Assembly: GCF_008326425.1 (NCBI RefSeq) | Contig: NZ_AP018929.1 | Location: 572,875 to 636,874 of the forward strand | Reading direction: 5' to 3' | Length of the DNA: 64,000 nucleotides | From: Sulfuracidifex tepidarius | GTDB lineage: Archaea > Thermoproteota > Thermoprotei_A > Sulfolobales > Sulfolobaceae | In this document: piece after piece, positions 8,015 to 46,910 of the stretch | Position numbering within the stretch: position 1 is the stretch's first letter | Layout: the number at the start of each line of letters is the position of its first letter | The notes under the pieces: generated by a model | What the model was told of the DNA's origin: nothing | The model's input: only the letters and a program-made list of their open reading frames with translations | Database searches by the model: none | Translations under genes and position numbers: made by a program

Positions 8015-9514
8015 ATGGGTTTATTCGTGTTCGATAGAGTGCTAGCTGCATTCACAATGGGAACCCATATGCTGTTCACTTACTGGGCTATCTCATTGCC
8101 TATATTCATCGTTACTGCTGAATATTTAGCCTATAAGAGGAACGATCCGTACTACATGGCTCTAGCCAAGAGGTTTTCAGTAGTTATGGCTGTGTTGTTC
8201 GCTGTTGGTTCAGCAGCAGGCGCAGCAATCGCAGTGGAGTTCATAACAGTTTGGTATAGATGGATGTATATTGTGAACGAAGTCGACATTCTACCCTTCG
8301 AGATAGAGGTAATGGCTTTCTTCTCCGAGGTGATATTTCTATCGCTTTACTTGTACGGATGGGACAGACTAAGCAGGACTGCCCACATGGTACTTGGGCT
8401 CATGGTGGGAGTTGGTTCCACCATGTCTGCAGTGTTGATAGTGCTGGTGAATTCATGGATGAATACACCTAACGGTTTCAACGTTGAAGAGTTCGTCACC
8501 ACGGGAAAGATAACCGATGTGAATCCCATAGCTTCCCTATGGCCTCCTGCAGCAAGCGCCGAGGTCCCAATGGTGATAGCAGGTGCTTGGTTTGTGGGAT
8601 TCGGAAGTTTGACAGGATACTTCGCCTTCAGGAAGCTCTTCAGTAAACTAAATCACGACGAGAACGAGTACTACAATAGAGGACTTAAGCTGTCACTCTT
8701 TCTTGCTTCATTAGACGCACTTCTCTTGGGTTGGAGCGGAGACAACGCTGGAAAGGTACTTTATTCCGAACAACCGTTGAAGCTAGCTACCCTTGAGGGA
8801 GTTATGAAAACCGGTGCAGGAGTTCCTATGACTGTGGGTCCTATTTCCATACCAAATGTATTGAGTCTACTGTCCACTTGGCCTCCGAACCCAAACGCTG
8901 TAGTGCTAGGTTACTCTAGCTTCGTGAAAGCAGTTCAAGACCCGATATGGTGGATATCCCATGACGCTTACGACCTTCATGCAACTCTTGGAATTGTTGG
9001 TGCCCTAGTATTCTGGATTCTGGCGTCATTCACGTTCTTCAGACTACCCAGGATGAAGAAGGCTTTCGGCTTCCTTGGTCTGGATAACCCGCTAGAGAGG
9101 AAGCTTCCTCTATACGTTGCACTAGTTGTGGGATGGCTTCAACTTTTAGCGTGGGAGTCAGGATGGGTAGCAGCTGAGACAGGAAGACAACCCTTCGTCA
9201 TCTGGGGACCTATGGAGGAGACTTCAAGCGGTTTATATACTATACAAGCAGGAATGCTTACCACTCAGGGTTTCAACAACAATCCCGACGTTCTGCCAAT
9301 AGGAATAGCAATAATGGCAGCTCTAGTTCTTGCAGTGCTGGGAACTCTTTATATGCTGAGAAAGTTGTTCATGGGAAGGGACGTGAGCAAGGACGTTAAG
9401 ATCAGCGAAAACGAACTCAGCGTATCCGTAAAGACCGCAGGTCCTAGGACATCTATACATGGGAATACCGCTGAGGATAAAGGAGAAATGAAGGATAAGG
9501 GTGAGCTAAAATGA
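8015..9514 (+). CDS. cydA: Cytochrome bd oxidase subunit I (divergent archaeal CydA)
   Basis: The 499-residue polytopic protein belongs to the CydA family. It has His18 in MGTHMLF (haem ligand position near the N terminus), the FEIEVMAFFSEVIFLSLYLYGWDRLS block with the Glu pair of the proton path, and GRQPFVIWG matching the GRQPW signature. Where bacterial CydA carries the b558 His and Met ligands, this sequence seems to have Glu183 (SAEVPMVIAG) and His322 (YDLHATLG), so its haem coordination may differ. The quinol-binding loop is short. The C-terminal ~60 residues are charged and cytoplasmic. The next gene overlaps by four bases (ATGA). The role is quinol:O2 oxidoreduction in the membrane. 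Confidence 0.88.
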   Translation: MGLFVFDRVLAAFTMGTHMLFTYWAISLPIFIVTAEYLAYKRNDPYYMALAKRFSVVMAVLFAVGSAAGAAIAVEFITVWYRWMYIVNEVDILPFEIEVMAFFSEVIFLSLYLYGWDRLSRTAHMVLGLMVGVGSTMSAVLIVLVNSWMNTPNGFNVEEFVTTGKITDVNPIASLWPPAASAEVPMVIAGAWFVGFGSLTGYFAFRKLFSKLNHDENEYYNRGLKLSLFLASLDALLLGWSGDNAGKVLYSEQPLKLATLEGVMKTGAGVPMTVGPISIPNVLSLLSTWPPNPNAVVLGYSSFVKAVQDPIWWISHDAYDLHATLGIVGALVFWILASFTFFRLPRMKKAFGFLGLDNPLERKLPLYVALVVGWLQLLAWESGWVAAETGRQPFVIWGPMEETSSGLYTIQAGMLTTQGFNNNPDVLPIGIAIMAALVLAVLGTLYMLRKLFMGRDVSKDVKISENELSVSVKTAGPRTSIHGNTAEDKGEMKDKGELK

Positions 9515-14430: not shown

Positions 14431-16557
14431 TTGACTTTTACTCCTAGGAAGGCCTTATATTCGCTTCTAGTTATCGGAATAATAGGAATTCTTTATTATC
14501 TTCTAATTCAACAATCAGTAATAACTCTTACCATAAGTATTCTTTCAATTATTACTGGAATTATAATTCAGCCCAGACGATATAAGCCTGGTAAGAGAAG
14601 AAGTTCCAGAAATTCCAGTGTTAGCGTTTCTGATATGGTTCAACAAGACGAAGTTATTCCTAGCCCAAAAGCTCCAGTTTATGAAAGTAATTTTAGTATG
14701 GAGAGGAGTGATATGAGTACACATAGACTTAACTGCGACTTAACCTATAAGGTAGAGGAGGAGGATGGAGATTATTCTACCGTGTTGATTCGCGTCAAGA
14801 CAGACGTAGATGGAGTTAAGGACGATGTAGATAAGATAGTAATGTATGTAGATGGAATTATCTCTGATCTAAGAAAAGATGGAAGAGGAGAGTATGTTAC
14901 CAAGAAAAAACTCCAGCCTGGGAATCATAGTGTTTACGTTAACATCTCAAAAGGGCTATCAGATACGGTGAGAACTTTCAACGTAAACATCAGAGACGTG
15001 AGCAACCTAGAGCTAAAACTGAATACACAGCTTGAAGGTGATGAAATCAGAATAGATATTTGGACCAAACTGGAGGATTCATATATAGATGTATACTCCA
15101 TAAGGGCATTTGTAAATGGAACCCCAGTAAATCTTCAAAGGGTAAATCAAGGTATTTTAAGAGGATATCATAAGCTATCTAGAGAAGGGAGACTCAAGGT
15201 TGAGGCGTTCTGTAACTACAAAGGAAGAACATTCTCTACAATGTCATTTGTAGAAGTGAATGCAAGTGATGTAATCATGAATGCCTCGGTTGATAACGAT
15301 AAGATTATACTCAAGTTAACAAATTCAAACGGTTTCAGGATAGATCTAGCAGACATGAAGATGTTTATTGACGATTTAATTATAAACCCAATTAAGATAG
15401 ATCAAGGAATTTACCAGACCTCGACGTTATCTCCAGGTAGGCATTCTATTAGGGTAAAGGGTGAGTTCCTCGGCAAGACGGTCGACGTAGCGAAAGAGGT
15501 AGAAATCTCAGGTCAAATTAGATCGTCAGAATTCAATCCTAACTTGCTTTTGAACAGAAGATTAGGAAACGTTAAGCTAAATGAGTTGATCTCTGAAGGT
15601 GGTTTCGGTTATGTGTTTAGGGGAACGGATGATGGTGAGGAAGTGGCGGTAAAAATATTAATACCTGATAAGATTTCCTCAATAGATAGGTTTATAGATT
15701 ATATAAATTCTCTTTATAAAGAAGCATCCTATCTCATACAGTTATCAGCTAACAGTTTAGGGATAGTTAGGATAAAGAAGTTTCATCTTGACGTGAACTA
15801 TAAGATGCTAGACAACCTACGCGGGGACAACTTAGTGGATTTAATAAATGATCCTCCTTATCTAGTAATGGAACTGATGCGTGGAGGATCTCTAAACAAT
15901 TATATGCTTTCACTATCTTCTAAGGAAAGGAAGGATTTGGCGAAGATCCTTATTTTCTATGTAGGAAATGCGTTGAAGTCTCTCCATGATATAGGGATAG
16001 TGCATAGTGACATAAAACCCTCAAATATTCTCCTGAGCTCTTCTCCTAGTTCAGATAGCTTAGTTACAAAGATAATAAACGGTCAAATTAAGGTTAAGCT
16101 TGGTGATCTAGGTAGCGCTGTAAAGAAGGGTGAGAGTGCACTCACATATTCCTTATACTCCTCATTCGACCAAATGGTATCAGTTGCAATGACATCCATG
16201 AAAAATCCTAACGTGACCAAGTTAGGAGTATTCCCAGAGGACGATGTATATGCATTTGGATCAACACTTTATTTTCTCGTAAATCAGAAGGTGTTAAACA
16301 ATGTGAACATACATGGAAATAGTGTTGATATTGACAAATGGGTTGCGAAAAATTATGATCGTTTCAGGCATGCAAACTCAAGCAACTTCTTTACTGTTTA
16401 CAATGATGTGATGAATGAAGCTTTAGAATTATGCGAGCACAGAGAAGTTACTACGGACAGAAGCCAACTTGATGAACTTATCCTGATGATGGTTAACTGT
16501 GACAAGAGGAAGAGACCTTCTATCGATGAGATATTGAGAAGAACTTCATCTCTATAA
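14431..16557 (+). CDS. Membrane-anchored eukaryote-type Ser/Thr protein kinase
   Basis: The 708-residue protein starts at TTG. Two hydrophobic helices lie at about residues 8-45. A region of about 300 residues follows with three similar all-beta segments, each closing with a G(N/R)HS motif (LQPGNHSVYVNIS, LSPGRHSIRVKG). The kinase domain begins near residue 380: glycine loop EGGFGYVF at 389-396, Lys408 in VAVKIL, catalytic loop HSDIKPSN with Asp527 and Lys529, and DLG with Asp559 in place of DFG. The HRD Arg is Ser, so it is a non-RD kinase, and no clear APE motif is visible. The beta repeats and the kinase both follow the helices, so they should lie on the same, cytoplasmic side. Sulfolobales kinases of this class act in starvation and motility signalling; the target here is unknown. 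Confidence 0.85.
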   Translation: MTFTPRKALYSLLVIGIIGILYYLLIQQSVITLTISILSIITGIIIQPRRYKPGKRRSSRNSSVSVSDMVQQDEVIPSPKAPVYESNFSMERSDMSTHRLNCDLTYKVEEEDGDYSTVLIRVKTDVDGVKDDVDKIVMYVDGIISDLRKDGRGEYVTKKKLQPGNHSVYVNISKGLSDTVRTFNVNIRDVSNLELKLNTQLEGDEIRIDIWTKLEDSYIDVYSIRAFVNGTPVNLQRVNQGILRGYHKLSREGRLKVEAFCNYKGRTFSTMSFVEVNASDVIMNASVDNDKIILKLTNSNGFRIDLADMKMFIDDLIINPIKIDQGIYQTSTLSPGRHSIRVKGEFLGKTVDVAKEVEISGQIRSSEFNPNLLLNRRLGNVKLNELISEGGFGYVFRGTDDGEEVAVKILIPDKISSIDRFIDYINSLYKEASYLIQLSANSLGIVRIKKFHLDVNYKMLDNLRGDNLVDLINDPPYLVMELMRGGSLNNYMLSLSSKERKDLAKILIFYVGNALKSLHDIGIVHSDIKPSNILLSSSPSSDSLVTKIINGQIKVKLGDLGSAVKKGESALTYSLYSSFDQMVSVAMTSMKNPNVTKLGVFPEDDVYAFGSTLYFLVNQKVLNNVNIHGNSVDIDKWVAKNYDRFRHANSSNFFTVYNDVMNEALELCEHREVTTDRSQLDELILMMVNCDKRKRPSIDEILRRTSSL

Positions 16558-17542
16558 ACACTTCTTTTCCCTTATAGTTCCTACACTAAACTTCTTTATA
16601 GGATTAGTCTTCCTAGCTTTTGAAGCAATAGTCCTAATTGGTGAATGTTCGACCTAGAACCTCTATAAATTTTCTCCTCTTTTTTGAATGAAAATGAGAT
16701 AAATAATAATAGTTTGTGTCATTTATTCCCTTTTTATTATTCTTAGTCAAACTTATACTATTTCAATTATTTCAAAACAATCATTAAACCCGTTTACCTA
16801 CTCTACCTGAAACTCATCAGTGGAAGGGACATCTTAGCCATATGTTATCCTTTTGTGGATAGCACTAACAATTTAACTGAAATAGCTTTAAGGTTGTAAG
16901 CTCAAGCCGTATAATATGTAAAGATTCTCGTTATTAATTGAACTTAAAGAAAAGTAGATGTAATGATGTAATGTAAACTAAACATGGATAAAGAAATCAA
17001 AAGTTCTTGTGTCAGAAGATTTATGTGAGCTTCGCTAACTATTGGCGTTTTATAGTTAGTAATAATAGACCTAGATTTCAATCATATGTTAATCGGTTAC
17101 GCTTATTAACTAAAAAATTAAAAATATTATTCTTATGTGACTGTTTTTCTAAATACTTTTAAAAGCATTCATAATATTTATTAATATATAAATAGTAAAA
17201 TTTAGATAATTAATTATATTATCTAATTCTATCTAGATCTATATAATCACAAAAGTGCAGGTCAACTAAAAGTCTCTGGCGAAAATAGCCGTTAATTTTC
17301 TTTATGTTCAGACATGAGATCTCTTACTTGAATACCCCATTAGAGAAACCAGAAAGTCATTACTGCCGAGAGAAAGTAAGGAAACTGCTATACTTTAATT
17401 AAAATTCTTTAATCATTGAATTTTACTTATAAATATATCGAAAATCATTTAAATGTCTTAATTATCTCTTGGACGAATTTAAGTTTTCGTCACATCATTT
17501 ACCCAGAGAAATTCTAAATAGTTTTGAAAGTGACTTTAACAT
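16558..17542. other. Intergenic, no supported gene
   Basis: The region is strongly AT-rich. There are no open frames with coding character, and no tRNA-like cloverleaf or CRISPR repeats were seen. The last 60 bases form the upstream region of the flavoprotein gene. Confidence 0.5.
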
Positions 17543-30243: not shown

Positions 30244-30719
30244 CTTTCAATCCCGTTATGGGTTCAACCAGAGTCCTTTATTTGAAGGACATAAATTACG
30301 TCAATAACTTTCAATCCCGTTATGGGTTCAACCAGAGTCTAAAGTTGATTATCATATAGGTGCGTTTAGGAGCTTTCAGTCCCGTTATGGGTTCAACTAA
30401 ATCACGATTATCACGATAAGTATAATATCCGATATTTCTTTCAATCCCGTTATGGGTTCAACAAACCTTCAAATAAAAGTAGGAAATAAAATTGTTAAAT
30501 TCTTTCAATCCCGTTATGGGTTCAACGGGAAAGGATATACAATTGTAAGAATAGGTGATTATGTAATCCTTTCAATCCCGTTATGGGTTCAACGGTGATT
30601 AGATGACCATTAATCTTTACGGCAAGCAATACTTTCAATCCCGTTATGGGTTCAACCCTAATGCGGGAAGATACGACGTCGTGGTTACAGCCTCCTTTCA
30701 ATCCCGTTATGGGTTCAAC
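30244..30719 (-). CRISPR. CRISPR array 1: 8 repeats of 25 bp
   Basis: Eight repeats start at 30244, 30308, 30373, 30438, 30502, 30569, 30632 and 30695. On the plus strand each begins CTTTCAATCCCG and ends GGGTTCAAC; spacers are 38-42 bp. Read on the minus strand the repeat ends in ATTGAAAG, the usual Sulfolobales crRNA 5' handle, so transcription is leftward with the leader to the right of 30719. The third repeat has one substitution (TCAGT for TCAAT). The leader-distal end abuts the decayed type I-D genes, on the same strand. Both leftmost spacers begin CAGAGTC on the plus strand. Confidence 0.97.
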
Positions 30720-30965
30720 TCAAGGTTTTATTTACCCTCAATCTCATTTTCTCCTTTCTCCCCTATAAATTTTACGTCTCCTCCATCACCTCATAATTCG
30801 ACCCTTTTCCCCTTCCTTTCCTTACCGTAACCCGGTCGCATGGTGTTTTACACTAACTGAAAGAAACTACCCTATTTATAAATGTAAAACTCCTGAAATG
30901 ATTTCGTTTCGGTCGCAATGAAATTCGAACTTTATCGTTTATTAACTCCATTATGAGTTCGAACT
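30720..30965 (-). promoter_or_regulatory. Probable leader of CRISPR array 1
   Basis: On the minus strand the 120 bases before the first repeat are purine-rich, with an AAATTTATAGGGG TATA-like element around 30762-30776. Further out, 30940-30965 contains ACTCCATTATGAGTTCGAAC, which resembles a degenerate repeat (compare CCGTTATGGGTTCAAC). It could be an old displaced repeat or a regulatory palindrome. No gene is seen. Confidence 0.5.
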
Positions 30966-39206: not shown

Positions 39207-39459
39207 AAAATATAAAATAGAGGACGAGATATATATATTTTTTAAATATCTTGACTCACTAATGACGTGAGTAAGTTCTATTGATATAAATTCTTTATAT
39301 TTAGGTACCATGGCTTAGTCCAAAATTTTTAAATGAAACGGTAAGTTCTAGCGTTATTTAAATCTAGGAAGCGATAGGAAGATATCATTTTTTTAGAAAA
39401 TTTTTCAATGAAGCTATATAACACTTTTACAGGATAAACACGAATTTTCAGGGGAGCTC

Positions 39460-39944
39460 GTTTGTAGCAATCCTTAGAGGATTTGAAAGTCGTTTTTGTT
39501 TCGTTTTCGTATTTCTGTACCATAGTGTTTGTAGCAATCCTTAGAGGATTTGAAAGGGTAAATATGAGGACGTGGTTTTCATAGTTCTGTATGTTTGTAG
39601 CAATCCTTAGAGGGTTTGAAAGGGTACGTGACAGGCAAATACCCTCGTGGGTATTTGCGTTTGTAGCAATCCTTAGAGGGTTTGAAAGTCAGTAACAAGG
39701 AGGCTGACATCGGCATTATTCGTGTTTGTAGCAATCCTTAGAGGGTTTGAAACAAATCGAGTTCTCTTCACCTCCTTCTCTTTCCCCCAGTTTGTAGAAA
39801 TCCTTAGAGGGTTTGAAACTAATAGCACTAACGATATCAACGAAGCTAATATATGTTTGTAGAAATCCTTAGAGGGTTTGAAACTCACATATATGATTGC
39901 AGACGTTATGGCAGTATGTGGTTTGTAGAAATCCTTAGAGGGCT
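39460..39944 (+). CRISPR. CRISPR array 2: 7 full 30-bp repeats plus one truncated
   Basis: Repeats start at 39460, 39527, 39593, 39659, 39724, 39790 and 39855; an eighth at 39921 breaks off after about 22-24 bases. Each begins GTTTGTAG and ends TTTGAAAC or TTTGAAAG; spacers are 35-37 bp. Positions 9-10 vary between CA (left five) and AA (right three). The repeat is the plus-strand counterpart of that in array 3 (where these positions are TG). Transcription should be rightward from a leader left of 39460. The third spacer holds a perfect hairpin. The truncated repeat continues directly into a coding gene remnant. Confidence 0.95.
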
Positions 39945-40100
39945 CGATTTGTTCCGTGTATTTGAAGTAACCAGGGTTCCCACCACCTGCAGCGCCAGGA
40001 GTCTTTATTGGCATAAATACAGCAGCGTGAGTTAACCCCCCATGACCCCGACTAAGACAAACACTAATAAGAATAAGGAAAAGAAGATGGTCCTCTTCAT
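39943..40100 (-). pseudogene. Secreted cassette protein, 3' end cut off at a CRISPR repeat and frameshifted at G6
   Basis: The ATG at 40100 opens a signal peptide (KRTIFFSLFLLVFVLVGVMG). After a run of six G (C6 at 40036-40041 on the plus strand) the frame must shift by one to continue as LTHAAVFMPIKTPGAAGGGN then PGYFKYTEQIE. A seventh G would restore it. The mature start resembles the AAYVPIPYPGPGGG region of the gene at 41068-42132. The gene ends at about 39943 where the CRISPR repeat begins. A TATA-bearing promoter motif shared with the other cassettes lies at 40119-40141. Confidence 0.7.
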
Positions 40101-40118
40101 GAGATGAAGAAAAACGCA

Positions 40119-40141
40119 TCACGTTTATATGTGAGAACTAA
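40119..40141 (-). promoter_or_regulatory. Shared cassette promoter, copy 1
   Basis: CACGTTTATATGTGAGAACT on the plus strand is repeated before three cassettes (here, 42158-42178, 43082-43102), with a related form at 44800-44815. On the minus strand it reads as a TATA box (ACATATAAACGTG) 20-40 bases before the ATG. Confidence 0.7.
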
Positions 40142-40172
40142 TGAAAAGGATTTACTTTTTCTTGACCTTCAA

Positions 40173-40643
40173 TTAGTCTTCATCAGGTTTATGTACTTTA
40201 AAATGGCTTTCCTCTTCTGACCCAAATTCGTAATTATACCACTTCCTGTAAAGCGCTTTTAGACCGTAGTAGAGATCCTTATAGTTACGGATCTTGTAAT
40301 TAGAGATCTTCTTGTAAAAGGAGGCAAGAAGAGTCCCAAACAAAATCGCAAATCCCGCTATCAGGGCTTCAGGCCACAGACTAGCATACCAAGGTGGTGG
40401 GATATATTTAGACTGCGTGATACACCCTGTTGGTGGTATTACACCAAATGCTGCTGTTACAGTAGTGTTGGAGCCGTTGGGGTGATGATATACAATATAC
40501 CCTGTCTGAGGTGTCGCTGGTACCGTTTGTGGAGTTACGACGTTCTGCGCTATAGGGTGGTCTATTGAGTGAAGGTATGTTCCTAAGCTTAGAATTATTA
40601 CCGACGAAACTATTAAAACTATTAAAATTATCTTCTTCATCAA
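40173..40643 (-). CDS. Two-pass exported/membrane protein, cassette family
   Basis: The 156-residue protein has an N-terminal signal-anchor (KKIILIVLIVSSVIILSLGT) ending YLHSIDHP, an extracellular part of ~75 residues with Thr/Pro-rich segments, a second helix (ALIAGFAILFGTLLASF) and a basic then acidic cytoplasmic tail. The N terminus is clearly related to that of the gene at 43406-43879 (KVILVSMMIFLVCSGFYLHS), but the rest differs, which indicates domain shuffling. Family unknown. Confidence 0.7.
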   Translation of the reverse strand: MMKKIILIVLIVSSVIILSLGTYLHSIDHPIAQNVVTPQTVPATPQTGYIVYHHPNGSNTTVTAAFGVIPPTGCITQSKYIPPPWYASLWPEALIAGFAILFGTLLASFYKKISNYKIRNYKDLYYGLKALYRKWYNYEFGSEEESHFKVHKPDED

Positions 40644-41067
40644 TAATCAATAAAAAATGTTGACTTATAAGGATTTTCGTTAGGGATTTATGTCAGTAGA
40701 ACACGCTGAAACGAGTAGATGTAAGTACTCCGACCTTAATTGCTCTTTCTTTGCAAGTATTTTCGCCATAGATTTACGACCGAAGTCATGGAAAGAAGTC
40801 ATTCTCAGCTGTTTACTACAGATATAGAAACTTTCTGGAAGGAGCCTAAAACGGCTGCGAGAAATTTTTGTCGACCCCCGACAATAAAAACCCTTTATCC
40901 TTAATGATCTAATATGGATATACCAGTACAATTTTTTTGGAATTAAATTGGACGCGTGGATGAAGATCTTCTTTTTCCTTCTATCTACAGCCCAAAAAGG
41001 CACTAGATATAGCATCCCAGTCCTTCTCACATATAAAATATAATTAAAAACCTACATATATTTCTTA
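40644..41067. other. Spacer in cassette block, no confident gene
   Basis: A 116-codon minus-strand frame (41030-40680) exists but is rich in basic residues and lacks helices or motifs. I do not call it, although it could be a decayed cassette. Confidence 0.3.
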
Positions 41068-42132
41068 TTATTCGTCGTCTTCTAACGTTTCGCCATAAAC
41101 ACCTAATCCAGCAGCACCAGGAACTTTTATATAGATATCACCTATTGTTGTTACCTCTGTAGGAAATCCCGCACCCCAACCTTCGCTGATTTCGTCCAAG
41201 TAACTGCCTATAGCTCCACCAAATTGGTCTAGACTGTCATAGCTGGAGTCTTGTACTGGGTCATAAATGAAGTCATTTATACTGCCGCCGTATTTTTCGG
41301 CTAAATTAGATATTGTTTTACCTAATAGGCTTTGCTCTTCTTGGTTGCCATTCACTATCTGACCGTAAGAGAGTTTACCACTTTCAAGTACATTTTCCCA
41401 TTCCCTCAATATGTTCAATAAGTTTGACCTGAAACCTATGGCATTGAAAGAGTTCGGCATATCTACCTGATATGCGTAAGCATAAGCGTTCTGTATTCTT
41501 ACACCTCCATCTGGCTCAAATGAAACTGAATATGACCAACCATAAACGTAAACTCTTGAACCACTCGTATACGTATAAACTTGGATTACAGCAGGATCAG
41601 TTTCTGGTGCATCCATTATCAATTGGTTGGTTGTACTGTTTACATAGAAGGAAAGCGGGAAGCCTAAGTTCTGATAACCTTCAATATAAAAGTAATTGTC
41701 CATCTGAATTGTTAGAAGGTTAGCCTCATCAGCCACAGCTGTGTAGTTATATGCCTCATTACCCGCAAAAGATATTGAATATACCCAAGTATCGTTTTTC
41801 ACATTAGAATAACATGAAGAATTGTATATTTCAAACCAGATGGTAGCATTAGTGCCGTTATATGACAAACCTATACCGTAATGTTCAATGTTACCACATA
41901 TGTCGAGTTCCCCAAAAATAATACCAATATACTGGTAACAATTACCACCACCTCCTGGTCCTGGATAAGGTATGGGGACGTAGGCTGCAGATGACTCCAA
42001 TGTATATTGTTGCAGAATCAGAAGAGGAGCTATTACTAATGATACTACTTCTAGAAGTCGTATGCCGTAAAGTAGGTATCGCTTCCAAACCTTGCTTGAA
42101 ATAGAATGTATGAAGGCTTTCTTGAGGTCCAT
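41068..42132 (-). CDS. Secreted PIPYPGP-motif protein (cassette C)
   Basis: The 354-residue protein starts MDLKKAFI, as do two other cassettes, then diverges into an unusual long N terminus with a hydrophobic stretch (LLEVVSLVIAPLLIL) before SSAAYVPIPYPGPGGGGNCY. The mature part is beta-rich, Tyr/Asn/Ser-rich with repeated YxYxYGWSYS-like strands, several glycosylation sites and an acidic end (GETLEDDE). The MDLKKAFI junction coincides exactly with the end of the 548-bp repeat at 42108, so the present 5' end was probably pasted on by recombination. No membrane anchor; probably extracellular. Function unknown. Confidence 0.75.
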   Translation of the reverse strand: MDLKKAFIHSISSKVWKRYLLYGIRLLEVVSLVIAPLLILQQYTLESSAAYVPIPYPGPGGGGNCYQYIGIIFGELDICGNIEHYGIGLSYNGTNATIWFEIYNSSCYSNVKNDTWVYSISFAGNEAYNYTAVADEANLLTIQMDNYFYIEGYQNLGFPLSFYVNSTTNQLIMDAPETDPAVIQVYTYTSGSRVYVYGWSYSVSFEPDGGVRIQNAYAYAYQVDMPNSFNAIGFRSNLLNILREWENVLESGKLSYGQIVNGNQEEQSLLGKTISNLAEKYGGSINDFIYDPVQDSSYDSLDQFGGAIGSYLDEISEGWGAGFPTEVTTIGDIYIKVPGAAGLGVYGETLEDDE

Positions 42133-42156
42133 TTTCTGACCTGGAAAAGCCTGGAC

Positions 42157-42179
42157 GAGTCACGTTTATATGTGAGAAC
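42157..42179 (-). promoter_or_regulatory. Shared cassette promoter, copy 2
   Basis: The TATA-like motif ACATATAAACGTGACTCG on the minus strand lies about 35 bases before ATG 42132. Behind it CCAGGTCAG provides a weak ribosome-binding site a few bases before the ATG. Confidence 0.65.
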
Positions 42180-42481
42180 TACCTCTTCGGCCTTGTACCA
42201 ACGTACCCCTGATACAAGTTCCAAGCAGAGATGGAAAACTCGAAGATGGTATCACCCAAGATGAGATACGATATCAATGAAGGCGAGCCTAGGTACAAGT
42301 AAAGGGATACCACGAGAGTTGCTAGGGAAAGCTTGTACAGGAGTAACCTCCACGTTGAAGAGGCTATCTTCCTCAGGAAGAAGTTACCCTCGTAAGCGTT
42401 TCCTACCCTCGAGAGGGCCATCCTGGTGGTGAGGAAGTCGTCGAAGTGGGCTAAGTAAAAAGCGAAGATCTCGACCCACAA
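42179..42481 (-). CDS. Small four-helix membrane protein (DUF5658-like), copy 1
   Basis: The 100-residue protein begins WVEIFAFYLAHFDDFLTTRM and has about three to four helices. The aspartates in helix 1 followed by EGNFFLRKI resemble DUF5658-type small membrane proteins (LD...T...EANP pattern). The TTG start follows the stop of the upstream gene directly (TAATTG). The choice is supported by AGGAGGAGGT, which lies 2-3 bases before the start and forms the last Arg codons of the upstream gene. The copy at 43103-43405 is identical, and a truncated divergent copy lies at 44823-45019. Confidence 0.75.
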   Translation of the reverse strand: MWVEIFAFYLAHFDDFLTTRMALSRVGNAYEGNFFLRKIASSTWRLLLYKLSLATLVVSLYLYLGSPSLISYLILGDTIFEFSISAWNLYQGYVGTRPKR

Positions 42482-42820
42482 TTACCTCCTCCTGTACACC
42501 AGGAATACCCCTATCAGGATAGAGATACCAACGCCTATCAACGCAAGGTTGATGTCTGTACTTGTTATGAGAACATGGGACGAAGCTATGGTGTGGGATA
42601 GGGATTGAGAGACGCTGTGAGAGATAGTAGGTACGTGGGTTGTTGGGGTAGTTGTTGTCGTACCTGTTGCAATTTGGCTTTGAGGTTGAGATGTCTGAGA
42701 GCCATTTACAAACATAGCCGGCATAGCCGGGACTCCAGTCAGACCTCCATTTGGAAAAATAGTAATATTAGAAATAGTTACATTATTTGCTGTCATATTA
42801 TACAAATATTCTACTGACAT
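42482..42820 (-). CDS. Thr/Ser-stalk membrane-anchored protein, short cassette
   Basis: The 112-residue protein has no signal peptide but a variable Asn/Thr/Gly N terminus (MSVEYLYNMTANNVTISNIT). A Ser/Thr/His-rich stalk follows (TTTPTTHVPTISHSVSQSLS), then a C-terminal helix INLALIGVGISILIGVFLVY and RRR. From the stalk on it is identical to the protein at 43406-43879. The absence of a signal suggests that the 5' end was replaced during duplication, so this copy may be non-functional. Confidence 0.6.
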   Translation of the reverse strand: MSVEYLYNMTANNVTISNITIFPNGGLTGVPAMPAMFVNGSQTSQPQSQIATGTTTTTPTTHVPTISHSVSQSLSHTIASSHVLITSTDINLALIGVGISILIGVFLVYRRR

Positions 42821-42873
42821 GACAACTAGGTTAAGAAAAATAACTTAAAAAATATTTTGCTAATAGCTTAGCT

Positions 42874-43056
42874 TCAATTTAAAGGATAAACGACTGCAGG
42901 TGTTTCTTTATTCGGTATGTAGCACCAACTGGGTCCTTTTGGCCCAGGGTATGGTATAGGCTTTGCCGGCAATGCTGCAGATGCTAGGAACGGCGTGGCA
43001 AGAGATATCAGGAACAGGGACATGAACACGGGTATGAAGGCTTTCTTGAGGTCCAT
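42874..43056 (-). CDS. Short secreted PIPYPGP protein (cassette B)
   Basis: The 60-residue protein has a good signal peptide (KKAFIPVFMSLFLISLATPF, cleavage after LASAA), then LPAKPIPYPGPKGPSWCYIP and a short tail. It shares the first codons with cassettes A and C. It is either a natural peptide of about 32 residues or a truncated cassette. Confidence 0.6.
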   Translation of the reverse strand: MDLKKAFIPVFMSLFLISLATPFLASAALPAKPIPYPGPKGPSWCYIPNKETPAVVYPLN

Positions 43057-43080
43057 TTTCTGACCTGGAAAAGCCTGGAC

Positions 43081-43103
43081 GAGTCACGTTTATATGTGAG
43101 AAC
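43081..43103 (-). promoter_or_regulatory. Shared cassette promoter, copy 3
   Basis: Identical to the copy at 42157-42179; it precedes the short PIPYPGP gene whose ATG is at 43056. Confidence 0.65.
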
Positions 43104-43405
43104 TACCTCTTCGGCCTTGTACCAACGTACCCCTGATACAAGTTCCAAGCAGAGATGGAAAACTCGAAGATGGTATCACCCAAGATGAGATACGATATCA
43201 ATGAAGGCGAGCCTAGGTACAAGTAAAGGGATACCACGAGAGTTGCTAGGGAAAGCTTGTACAGGAGTAACCTCCACGTTGAAGAGGCTATCTTCCTCAG
43301 GAAGAAGTTACCCTCGTAAGCGTTTCCTACCCTCGAGAGGGCCATCCTGGTGGTGAGGAAGTCGTCGAAGTGGGCTAAGTAAAAAGCGAAGATCTCGACC
43401 CACAA
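43103..43405 (-). CDS. Small four-helix membrane protein (DUF5658-like), copy 2
   Basis: Identical in sequence to the protein at 42179-42481, with the same TTG start coupled to the stop of the stalk-protein gene. The perfect identity of coding and flanking DNA shows a very recent duplication or ongoing gene conversion. Confidence 0.75.
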   Translation of the reverse strand: MWVEIFAFYLAHFDDFLTTRMALSRVGNAYEGNFFLRKIASSTWRLLLYKLSLATLVVSLYLYLGSPSLISYLILGDTIFEFSISAWNLYQGYVGTRPKR

Positions 43406-43879
43406 TTACCTCCTCCTGTACACCAGGAATACCCCTATCAGGATAGAGATACCAACGCCTATCAACGCAAGGTTGATGTCTGTACTTGTTATGAGAACAT
43501 GGGACGAAGCTATGGTGTGGGATAGGGATTGAGAGACGCTGTGAGAGATAGTAGGTACGTGGGTTGTTGGGGTAGTTGTGATTGGGCTTTGGGTTTGAGG
43601 GTTGTTTTGAGGGTACCCGGTAAAATTAGATCCCGACGCAACAGATGACGTATTAAGCCCTTCAATAGGCATATCAAGCTTGGAAATACATTCTTCAAGT
43701 TGTTTAGTGGGTTCCGTCACGTTAGTTACGTTCTGCGTAGTAGTTACATTTGTGTTAGTTGAACTCTGAGTAGAGGCTACGGTAGCACTAACTTCAACCT
43801 GATGGCCCTCTGAATGTAAATAGAAGCCTGAGCAAACGAGAAATATCATCATTGATACTAGGATTACTTTCCTCATCAT
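43406..43879 (-). CDS. Thr/Ser-stalk membrane-anchored protein with signal peptide
   Basis: The 157-residue protein has a signal peptide (RKVILVSMMIFLVCSGFYLH), a Thr/Asn/Gln-rich extracellular part with many N-glycosylation sequons, the shared Ser/Thr/His stalk, a C-terminal helix and RRR. This one-anchor, stalk-like layout is that of a cell-surface display protein. Its last codons (AGG AGG AGG) double as ribosome-binding site for the next gene. It is probably the parental form of the shorter copy at 42482-42820. Confidence 0.7.
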   Translation of the reverse strand: MMRKVILVSMMIFLVCSGFYLHSEGHQVEVSATVASTQSSTNTNVTTTQNVTNVTEPTKQLEECISKLDMPIEGLNTSSVASGSNFTGYPQNNPQTQSPITTTPTTHVPTISHSVSQSLSHTIASSHVLITSTDINLALIGVGISILIGVFLVYRRR

Positions 43880-44027
43880 GATATATATAGAGAGAAAAAA
43901 GTTTTAAAAACTTTTCACCAGCGGTATTCAACGCCCTGAGTTCCCACGTAATTGTTTCCCGTTCCAAACGTTGGAACCACATAGGCATTAGCGTGTGGGT
44001 ATTGCATTATAAATTCAACAGCATTGC

Positions 44028-44770
44028 CTAATGGAAGCCCCCTTCGAATATCATTGAGCTATTGGACGCATATGAATTAGCAAATACGTAGTTACTTGAG
44101 GGGATGGTTGGGAAAGATACAGGCGTTGTTCCGCTGAGTGGGTCTTCGACCTCGAAGAAGACTTGTTTGTCGGGTATAGTATATTGCAGATCTATTGTTT
44201 GGCTATAGTAAACTTGGCCAGTTTTAGCGTTCGCAATGTAAATGTACGCTTGAGTTATTTGCCCTTGGCTATTTAGTGTTGCATTAATTGTTAAATTGAA
44301 GATATAATTAAGATGAAGTGATGAACCTGAACCGCCAGTGATAACACCAATGGTATTATATTCTTCCACAACTTTACCGTAATCATCACCCCAAGCCTGA
44401 ACTTGCCAAGCAAGACACGAATCATTTCCGTCACTCGCAAAAATAATGACTGGTTGTATGTAATATGCACCGTATTTATCATTAGGTAAAATTTGCCCTA
44501 ATGCTATATAGTAATCTACTGCTTCCAGTCCTTTTTGAGAGCTGTTATAACTAAATGTTCCTGTCAAGTTAACAAGAGTCGTCACAAACGTTATCTTCGA
44601 AAGGTTGTATGCAAAACCCGCATCATTACTAGGGTAAACCGGGCCGATACAATATCCTCCACCAGGTCCGGGGTATGGTATCGGAACGCTGCGGATGCTA
44701 GGAACGGCGTGGCAAGAGATATCAGGAACAGGGACATGAACACGGGTATGAAGGCTTTCTTGAGGTCCAT
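44028..44770 (-). pseudogene. Secreted PIPYPGP-motif protein (cassette A), frameshifted at signal junction
   Basis: From ATG 44770 the signal peptide (KKAFIPVFMSLFLISLATPF) runs to ASAA. One base then appears to be missing near 44686-44690 and the frame continues as VPIPYPGPGGGYCIGPVYPS and a ~220-residue beta-rich secreted domain (NLTGTFSYNSSQKGLEAVDY, AYIYIANAKTGQVYYSQTID). The C terminus SMIFEGGFH ends at 44028. The domain is related in style to cassette C but not in detail. It is inactive as read unless the shift is a sequencing error or is bypassed. Confidence 0.7.
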
Positions 44771-44822
44771 TTTCTGACCTGGAAAAGCCTGGACAAGTCA
44801 CGTTTATATACAATAACAAGTC

Positions 44823-45019
44823 CTACTTTTGACGATTTTTCTCTAAAACGAGATAAGTGTTCCACGCCACTACAGACCCCTCTAACAAAATGTCCCCGTA
44901 CTCAATGTACCAACCGAATGGGAGGATTGAGCAAAAGAGTAGGATGAGCGTAGCTAACGTGAGCTTGTAAAGGAACAGCCTAACCCCTGTCTTGCCCCTT
45001 AAAATTAGGTAAGAAGGGA
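44823..45019 (-). pseudogene. 5'-truncated third member of the small membrane protein family
   Basis: Translation gives LRGKTGVRLFLYKLTLATLI and then LLEGSVVAWNTYLVLEKNRQ with a stop at 44823-44825. This aligns with RLLLYKLSLATLV and FEFSISAWNLYQGY of the intact copies. The N-terminal half is missing because the block ends at the solitary CRISPR repeat piece at about 45020. Confidence 0.7.
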
Positions 45020-45050
45020 TTTTTCTATAAATCCTTAGAGGGCTTGAAAC
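45020..45050 (+). repeat. Solitary CRISPR repeat piece at the right edge of the cassette block
   Basis: AAATCCTTAGAGGGCTTGAA followed by AC matches the last 22 bases of the 30-bp repeat family of arrays 2 and 3, with one change (GGCT for GGTT). The first eight bases are replaced. The same GGGCT variant is seen in the truncated repeat at 39921-39944. No second repeat follows within 36-40 bp. Confidence 0.8.
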
Positions 45051-45214: not shown

Positions 45215-46910
45215 GAATATTCTGAGCTTGTAAAAAACCTTGAAGAGCTGATTGGTCTTCCCATCTATGTAGTAGTAGGCAGGTTAAAAGATAATCCAAT
45301 CTTGTTAACCACTACAGAGGGAAGAAATACCGTCTCAACTCTGATTGAAGGCAAACTAAATCCGTTGACCGGTGAACCGATAGCCTCTGTGGCTCCTCCA
45401 AAGCAGCATTTAGACTTTATCGCTTTCACTAGAGACGCTGAAAAGGGAAAAGAAATACACTCAGTTTATATTACAAATCTAAGAGGAGAGGAATAGGAGG
45501 TGGCCTCACCAAAAATGAGAATATTTTCCCTTGCTTATGACAAAAACAAGATGGCCTTCATAGGATCCTCCCAAGACAAGTCATCCCTTTACGTTATAGA
45601 AGGAGGGAAGATCAGGGAAATAGCCCCTATGTCTCCCTATTCTTTTGTAACTGACGTGAACGAAAAATACATAGTCGGATATGGAATCCTGAGAGGCAAC
45701 CCTAAATCAAACGAGTTCTTTGTAGCTGATCTTAGCGGTAACGTGAAGATTTACACGCCAAAAGAGGGTAGCATGAACATGGCTTATGGCATAAAGGATA
45801 ACAAGGTATACTTTGTAAGTGATTATGAGAATCCTGGTGAATCATACTGGATTTATACCTTTGATTTCCAAAAATATGAAAGGATAGAATTTTCAGAAAA
45901 AGATATCTATAACTACCGAGCAGTGGAGCTATATTATGATCCAATCGATTCCATCACCATAGCTAAGAGAGACGGTAGATCCAAACTATTCCTCAACGGT
46001 AGGATGTTAAACACTCCGGAAGGGGTGATTGGAGGAGCAACTAGGGTAAAAGACGTAGTCTATTTCAGCTGGTCATCCTTATCTAGTCCTTACAGAGTGT
46101 ACAGCATTAACCCAAATTATAACGAGATCAACGTGATCTTGAACAACAAAGAAACTAATATTGGGAATGTGGACTACGTTAAAGTTAAGAACGGAGACAT
46201 TGAAGTCCCTACGTGGATCATAAGGGCAAAGGAGCCAACCAATAAATGCATTGTTTACGTTCATGGGGGACCATGGTCTGATGTTGACGACAGCTGGAAT
46301 ATATTAATATCTCCTTTAGTCCAGGCTGGATTTAACGTTGTTGCCCCCAACTTCAGGGGTTCCAATGGTTATGGAAGCAAGTTCAACTTGATGGATGTGG
46401 GGGACCCAGGAGGCGGAGACTTAAGCGACGTAGTAGCAGTCCGGGATTACGTTCATGAAAAGAAAATCGCGGAGAAGGTAGGAATTATGGGTTATAGTTT
46501 ATGGAGGTTATATGACCTTGTTAGCGCTGGGAAAGGCACCGGATAAATGGGACTTTGGAGTTGCAGGAGCGTCTGTAACAGATTGGATTGAAATGAATGA
46601 TTTATCTGACTCATTTTTCAAGGGATTCATAGAGGTCCTGTTCATGGGTAAGAATTTAGAGCTAATGAAGGATAGATCTCCCATCACTTACGTTAACAAC
46701 GTAAGGTCACCCATATGCATAATACATTCCCATAACGACTCTAGGACACCCCTGATTCCCGTGCTAAAGTATATACAAAAGCTTCAGGAAAACAAGAAAA
46801 CGTTCTACTTACACGTTATCCCAAATTTGGGACATACCATTTACAGAAAGGACGATGCTGTAGACATAGTGTTACCGGCTTTAATCTTCCTTAAGAAAAT
46901 GTTGCAATGA
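45215..46910 (+). pseudogene. Acylaminoacyl-peptidase / prolyl-oligopeptidase family (S9) gene, dead
   Basis: Coding similarity runs from about 45215 (IEYSELVKNLEELIGLPIYV) to 46910. The N-terminal propeller part is interrupted by an in-frame TAG at 45494-45496. The hydrolase domain has YVHGGPWSDVDDSWN and PNFRGSNGYGSKF. The nucleophile motif is broken by one extra T near 46498-46502: the sequence should read GYSYGGYMTLL but shifts to GYSLWRLYDL. The remainder, in the new frame, has HSHNDSRTPL (catalytic Asp) and NLGHTIYR (catalytic His). The intact enzyme would be about 560-570 residues. Confidence 0.88.

Follow-up and report, generated by a model that had tools for sequence, protein, structure and literature searches.

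How did some 5 kb of viral genes come to lie between two repeats of a CRISPR (clustered regularly interspaced short palindromic repeats) array? The question is raised by a 64,000-nucleotide stretch of the Sulfuracidifex tepidarius chromosome (NZ_AP018929.1; G000:C1:572875-636874), here called the window, which comes from a closed 2.56-Mb genome in a single contig (G000). Descriptions of CRISPR arrays stress their striking regularity, and Cas1–Cas2 is thought to enforce a strict spacer length. The second array of the window (array 2) nevertheless ends in a repeat that passes directly into a block of genes, beyond which stands one solitary repeat in the same orientation. These two repeats, at 39921-39950 and 45021-45050, are separated by 5,070 bp, more than 100 times the length of the 35–37-nt spacers of the array. 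Gene content identifies the block as DNA of a fusellovirus, the family of the Sulfolobus spindle-shaped viruses (SSV) and Acidianus spindle-shaped virus 1 (ASV1), and a second fusellovirus piece lies between repeats elsewhere in the same genome. From this arrangement we infer, with a probability of about 0.6, that the fragment was taken up by an array-directed, oversized, spacer-like capture, through either Cas1–Cas2 adaptation or recombination between array and virus.

The repeats themselves are the natural starting point. Two further genomes of the genus were available for comparison, a closed one from a sister species (G002) and a fragmented assembly from a third species (G001), and these also served as a stand-in for the source virus. 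Array 2 occupies 39460-39944 on the + strand, and its 30-nt repeats change from GCAATCC..GGATTTGAAA on the leader side to GAAATCC..GGGTTTGAAAC on the distal side; the first two carry GGATTTGAAAG. As the first-pass annotation had noticed, the array stops in mid-repeat at about 39944: the eighth repeat, GTTTGTAGAAATCCTTAGAGGGCT, is perfect for its first 24 nt, up to 39944, and then passes into CGATTTGTTCC. That annotation had also reported a solitary piece of repeat at 45029-45050, sharing 16 bases with the broken one. The 16 bases (repeat positions 9-24) are there, and the solitary piece proves to be more than was supposed, a near-complete repeat at 45021-45050 whose three substitutions all fall within its first 8 nt. 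It matches 27 of 30 positions, whereas the best other match outside the arrays of the window reaches 19/30 and resampled DNA gives 18-21/30. Between it and array 3 there is no additional spacer or repeat. Positions 1-24 of the left repeat and 9-30 of the right together make GTTTGTAGAAATCCTTAGAGGGCTTGAAAC, which is exactly the repeat that ends a G002 array (L055). The GGGCT within the two pieces had been taken for a variant peculiar to them; no other repeat in the window arrays does have it, but it is standard in G002, and for that reason is best read, on this comparison, as the ancestral form of the repeat, retained at the old distal end.

Viral identity was established by blast against phage records and by phrog families, and on this basis the block is fusellovirus DNA. 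It corresponds to the stretch from an A101-like gene to the start of VP4, the end-filament gene, in a provirus of G002 (L051), plus extra genes of ASV1/SSV type. The provirus possesses an intact VP4 homolog of 813 aa (L051:11062-13503; phrog_6848, E 2.7e-248), C166, VP1, a DnaA-like gene and two split integrase halves. Gene order in the window (A101-like, 354/357-aa class, phrog_9637, VP4) is that of L051 and of the SSV record MK054234, with extra duplicated genes here. The SSV protein matched by the 354-aa gene product, at 36-38% identity, is 334 aa long, and the MK054234 counterpart likewise lies two genes upstream of VP4. Further resemblances to G002 come from the C-terminus of the 157-aa protein (80% identical to a viral remnant in L054 across 50 aa) and from the A101-like gene that lacks its 5' end (78% identity over 64 aa to a provirus gene). 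Part of the block is duplicated perfectly, and a third copy of the duplicated segment, 125 bp long, lies at 44685-44809 (98%). Scans of viral contigs and genome contigs for close relatives returned nearly nothing, with one distant contig. Because the block ends inside genes, and its VP4 and B276-like genes are frameshifted, we regard it as an internal, decaying fossil fragment rather than a mobile cassette, with no evident mobility and probably little or no function. The earlier suggestion that surface-protein cassettes are stored or moved here finds no support: the genes are a fusellovirus block from upstream of VP4, several of them frameshifted, with no mobility genes among them.

Each end gene is truncated at a repeat, as had been proposed. 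On the left, VP4 is broken 52 codons in, and three G002 homologs (L051, L053 and L054) run past the junction from window position 39947, all three with identical sequence there. On the right, inside the A101-like membrane protein gene, nucleotide homology extends to 45001 and protein homology to about 45018, and G002 continues. Homology to G002 stops at the window junctions, and none extends into the CRISPR flanks. The first pass had allowed that simple adjacency would be favored if the same genes, complete at both ends, were found at a site free of CRISPR repeats with homology continuous across the junctions. Such genes exist in the G002 virus, but homology stops before the CRISPR flanks, and simple adjacency is unsupported. 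No empty site from another strain was found.

The window is not the only such place in this genome. A pattern search allowing up to two mismatches yields 307 copies of the repeat in G000 (83 forward and 224 reverse). Every copy belongs to one of five arrays or is the solitary repeat in locus L089, and two of the five arrays hold a kilobase-scale fusellovirus insert between their last two repeats (5,070 and 1,459 bp). In the second case, at the 645-kb array, a complete solitary repeat (L089:7472-7501) and the last repeat of the array (8961-8990, one A short) enclose the C-terminal part of a gene like SSVK1 B252 (59%), complete phrog_9637 and phrog_8567 genes, and a fragment of VP4; in SSVK1, B252 likewise stands two genes upstream of the VP4 homolog, B793. 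The B252-like gene ends exactly at the first base of the complete repeat. In G001, this gene is unbroken (93% identity) and adjoins the gene for an aspartate transfer RNA (tRNA-Asp): the G001 sequence reads ...GTAACTAG|CTATTTCC, and that of G000 reads ...GTAACTAG|GTTTGTAG, starting with the first base of the repeat. Since G001 is continuous where L089 has its repeat, the L089 junction is exact to the base. Viral DNA came to lie between repeats independently in another array of the same genome. An inversion, by which the VP4 piece at 645 kb would be the severed half of the window VP4, was considered and dropped, as that piece lies in an insert of its own with its own upstream viral genes.

Other genomes provide cases that are comparable or suggestive. 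In an array of G002 (L054), two perfect repeats enclose 1,125 bp (L054:8871-10055), with four older spacers behind this insert. It encodes a 287-aa HSDR_N-like nuclease, a complete gene to which other Sulfolobaceae have relatives, and the two ends of the insert are inverted over 8 bp (AAGAGAAT/ATTCTCTT). At its distal end, this same array closes with a truncated repeat, beyond which lie pieces of fusellovirus. In the Sulfurisphaera tokodaii-like genome G004 (L104:10906-12121), one array trailer has a fusellovirus gene about 270 bp off and an exact 16-nt piece of repeat at 1.17 kb. That piece falls inside a motif repeated with a 68-bp period, and for this reason the case is only suggestive. Gaps of 81-244 bp in L055 of G002 were discarded as apparent sequence errors; within L055:6600-7660, homopolymer-like assembly errors garble the repeats. 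Fusellovirus remnants outside arrays (L051, L052, L053, L057 and, in G001, L107) are found at tRNA genes and/or integrase pieces. In several remnants from other genomes of the family (L058, L100 and L103, in G004, G015 and G020), the stretch upstream of VP4 is kept and VP4 itself breaks off within its N-terminal part, which could suggest that this break point is favored.

We suggest, then, that a long fragment of viral DNA, probably from degradation or repair of the virus, was joined between repeats by a process that the array itself directs. Cas1–Cas2 adaptation acting on an unprocessed, over-long prespacer would explain the repeats on both sides and the base-exact ends. Homologous recombination between array and virus, by way of spacers taken from that virus, would explain the length while leaving the length rule unbroken. 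The data do not tell these candidates apart. Either way, the comparison with a giant spacer, made in the first pass for foreign DNA inside or between repeats, gains support: two flanking repeats in the same orientation are present (26/30 and 27/30), although the length is 5,070 bp and not 35-40 nt.

Several observations weigh against this reading. Cas1–Cas2 normally measures 35-40 nt, so that only an exceptional event would give a kilobase-long insert. The leader conserved in the other four G000 arrays of the same repeat is missing from the 5' flank of array 2 (39230-39459), and this array may be an inactive orphan. Both flanking repeats in the window are imperfect on the side facing the insert, which also fits insertion at a repaired break with duplication of 16 bp, and repeat similarity past these 16 bp is of no more than marginal significance (P about 0.05). 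No protospacer-adjacent motif (PAM) could be made out: beside the left junction the viral homologs have TTA (three G002 copies), and the protospacers that were matched reveal no clear motif for the genus. The L054 insert, given its HSDR_N-like gene and inverted ends, may be of other than viral origin. Finally, both fusellovirus inserts are distal, away from the end at which ordinary adaptation works, so that one has to suppose that older spacers were lost later. Spacers behind the insert would perhaps have disappeared through recombination between repeats; such deletion is well documented in Sulfolobus arrays (PMC3025118), and could explain why both inserts are now last in theirs.

What other histories could produce this arrangement? 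A staggered break in the terminal repeat might have been repaired with a linear viral fragment, 16 bp being filled in on each side without any CRISPR machinery. The repeat pieces in the window, perfect complements overlapping by exactly 16 bp, are as this account predicts, as are the weak similarity outside the overlap and the seemingly random fragment ends inside two genes. It accords poorly with the second G000 insert, which also lies between repeats, with a complete distal repeat and an exact junction. Arrays make up less than 1% of G000, and two random captures there are unlikely; yet CRISPR repeats enclose both fusellovirus fragments of this genome that have no tRNA or integrase context, which argues for an array-directed process over random break repair. 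We therefore hold the latter doubtful as a general explanation, though random repair with 16-bp fill-in is possible for the window case alone. The staggered duplication of about 16 bp that the first pass envisaged is not required. The 16 bp are the remaining identity of two near-full repeats, and in L089 the repeat is complete. The same 16-bp direct repeats, seen as a target-site duplication, would suit transposition or the integrase-mediated insertion of a cassette. This we find scarcely credible: the scanned insert proteins include no transposase, integrase, cas1 or other mobility domain, terminal inverted repeats are absent at 39945/45028, the ends fall inside genes that continue elsewhere, and no second copy with the same ends was found in 31 genomes.

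An ordinary provirus remnant beside the array, or a provirus that later received the array, is another candidate: these genomes often contain fusellovirus remnants, and both G002 and G004 have fusellovirus pieces next to a CRISPR trailer. A provirus would be expected to show a tRNA target and a split or adjacent integrase. The window contains no tRNA and no integrase match, and L089 no tRNA or integrase fragment; moreover, the insert has repeats to its left and right and a cut gene at each end, and the G001 gene is unbroken where L089 has its repeat. We judge such an origin improbable. Misassembly of viral reads into the array is very improbable too. Repeats and a 548-bp perfect duplication are places where assemblers err, but the genome is a single closed contig with two such loci of different breakpoints, the frameshifts are of a fossil type, and a comparable insert is present in a second species. 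Array-directed capture remains our preferred explanation, and the features on which it is based are collected in Table 1.

Table 1. Features of array 2, its flanking repeats and the fusellovirus insert (window positions), with the second insert in the last row
Feature	Position	Strand	Remarks
CRISPR array 2, 7 full repeats	39460..39920	+	spacers 35-37 nt
Left flanking repeat	39921..39950	+	24 nt perfect, then CGATTT in place of TGAAAC; 26/30 overall
Left copy of 16-bp direct repeat AAATCCTTAGAGGGCT	39929..39944	+	
Right copy of 16-bp direct repeat AAATCCTTAGAGGGCT	45029..45044	+	continues TTGAAAC, giving repeat positions 9-30
Solitary distal repeat TTTTCTATAAATCCTTAGAGGGCTTGAAAC	45021..45050	+	27/30 to reconstructed repeat GTTTGTAGAAATCCTTAGAGGGCTTGAAAC
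Insert, one contiguous internal fusellovirus genome fragment	39945..45028	.	from inside A101-like gene to inside VP4; genes on - strand
VP4 (end-filament) gene, 5' end, ~52 codons, frameshifted	39947..40101	-	cut at left repeat
156-aa gene, phrog_9637 (virus family)	40173..40643	-	65% identity to homolog directly upstream of VP4 in G002 provirus
354-aa gene	41068..42132	-	36-38% identity to Sulfolobus spindle-shaped virus proteins (MK054234, MK054221)
100-aa membrane protein, phrog_7761 / DUF5658-like	42179..42481	-	33% identity to ASV1 A101
Second identical copy of A101-like 100-aa gene	43103..43405	-	
548-bp perfect duplication	42108..42655	.	copy of 43032-43579, 924-bp offset
157-aa signal/TM (transmembrane) protein	43406..43879	-	C-terminus common to 112-aa gene 42482-42820
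ASV1 B276-like gene, frameshifted near signal peptide	44028..44774	-	73.5% nt identity over 581 bp, ~70% aa
A101-like gene without 5' end	44823..45028	-	frame open up to right-hand repeat
Second insert, 1,459 bp fusellovirus DNA	L089:7472-8990 = G000:C1:643971-645489		

Spacers that match fuselloviruses occur in the genus, a point in favor of the array-directed reading. Spacers of G002 (L056:10300 and 6802) show a 31/36 match to the fusellovirus provirus of the same genome and, in one case, a 33/36 match to the window block, which this spacer hits at three places. Two spacers of G000 array 3 resemble ASV1 (28/36 and 30/38); with regard to self-targeting, none of the G000 spacers compared matches the insert block well. 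Another G002 spacer (L056:6466-6502, ATAGGTCTGTGGACCCAGAGGTCCCGGGTTCAATCCC) resembles the 3' end of a tRNA; it is possibly derived from a viral attP site, and potentially self-targeting. Elsewhere in the window, a 29-aa stretch 90% identical to ASV1 A96 (16556-16642) directly follows a Ser/Thr protein kinase gene, a small array with an unrelated repeat (CTTTCAATCCCGTTATGGGTTCAAC) occupies 30245-30720, and a frameshift-broken acylaminoacyl-peptidase-like (S9) gene lies between arrays 2 and 3 (45220-46910).

Does anything like this occur in better-known systems? The closest parallel is locus F of Sulfolobus solfataricus, a leaderless array in which, according to section 4.5 of the account by Garrett and colleagues (PMC4390879), an 899-bp fragment, in part like plasmid pNOB8, lies between two repeats. 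In both instances, DNA of a mobile element, far over spacer length, stands between repeats of a leaderless Sulfolobales array. The same account mentions few irregularities in Sulfolobales arrays, and locus F figures there as a lone one, of plasmid origin and 899 bp, with neither a junction analysis nor a recurrence in the portion available, whereas here the DNA is viral, 5.07 kb in length and recurrent in one genome. The present finding belongs to the same class as locus F; a further difference is that a related sequence proves one of its junctions. In the S. solfataricus-like genome G015, the 899-bp insert is absent from the array examined. Insertion sequences also interrupt arrays with foreign DNA, as when ISC1359 entered a spacer of a CRISPR locus (PMC4390879; PMC3025118); ISC1359, however, sits at a transposon target site within a spacer, and the block described here sits between repeats, without transposase or inverted repeats. 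Fusellovirus proviruses (SSV, ASV1) share the gene content of the insert and its location relative to VP4, but they normally integrate at a tRNA gene and split the integrase gene in doing so, and ours is an internal fragment between repeats without an attachment (att) site or integrase. Ordinary spacers are likewise viral DNA between two repeats in the orientation of the array; they differ in size (35-37 nt in array 2 against 5,070 bp), and both repeats here are imperfect on the insert side. No earlier report of viral inserts of this kind was found in the literature searched, from whose coverage most subscription journals are missing.

That kilobase-long viral inserts recur between repeats in one genus, one of them with an exact junction, shows arrays to be capable of taking in DNA 30-140 times the length of a spacer. 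This bears on how strictly length is measured in vivo, on the repair of fragments left by interference, and on the decay of arrays. It has a practical side as well, since array annotation may split such arrays and overlook the solitary repeat at the end. More tentatively, the adaptation machinery of the genus might sometimes miss the length altogether and integrate kilobase-long, unprocessed viral DNA as giant spacers, so that arrays collect fragments of viral genes and perhaps complete genes. Were that true, transcription of the giant spacers could yield long antisense RNA directed at the virus. In any event, whole blocks of viral genes can become trapped in the immune arrays of this genus.

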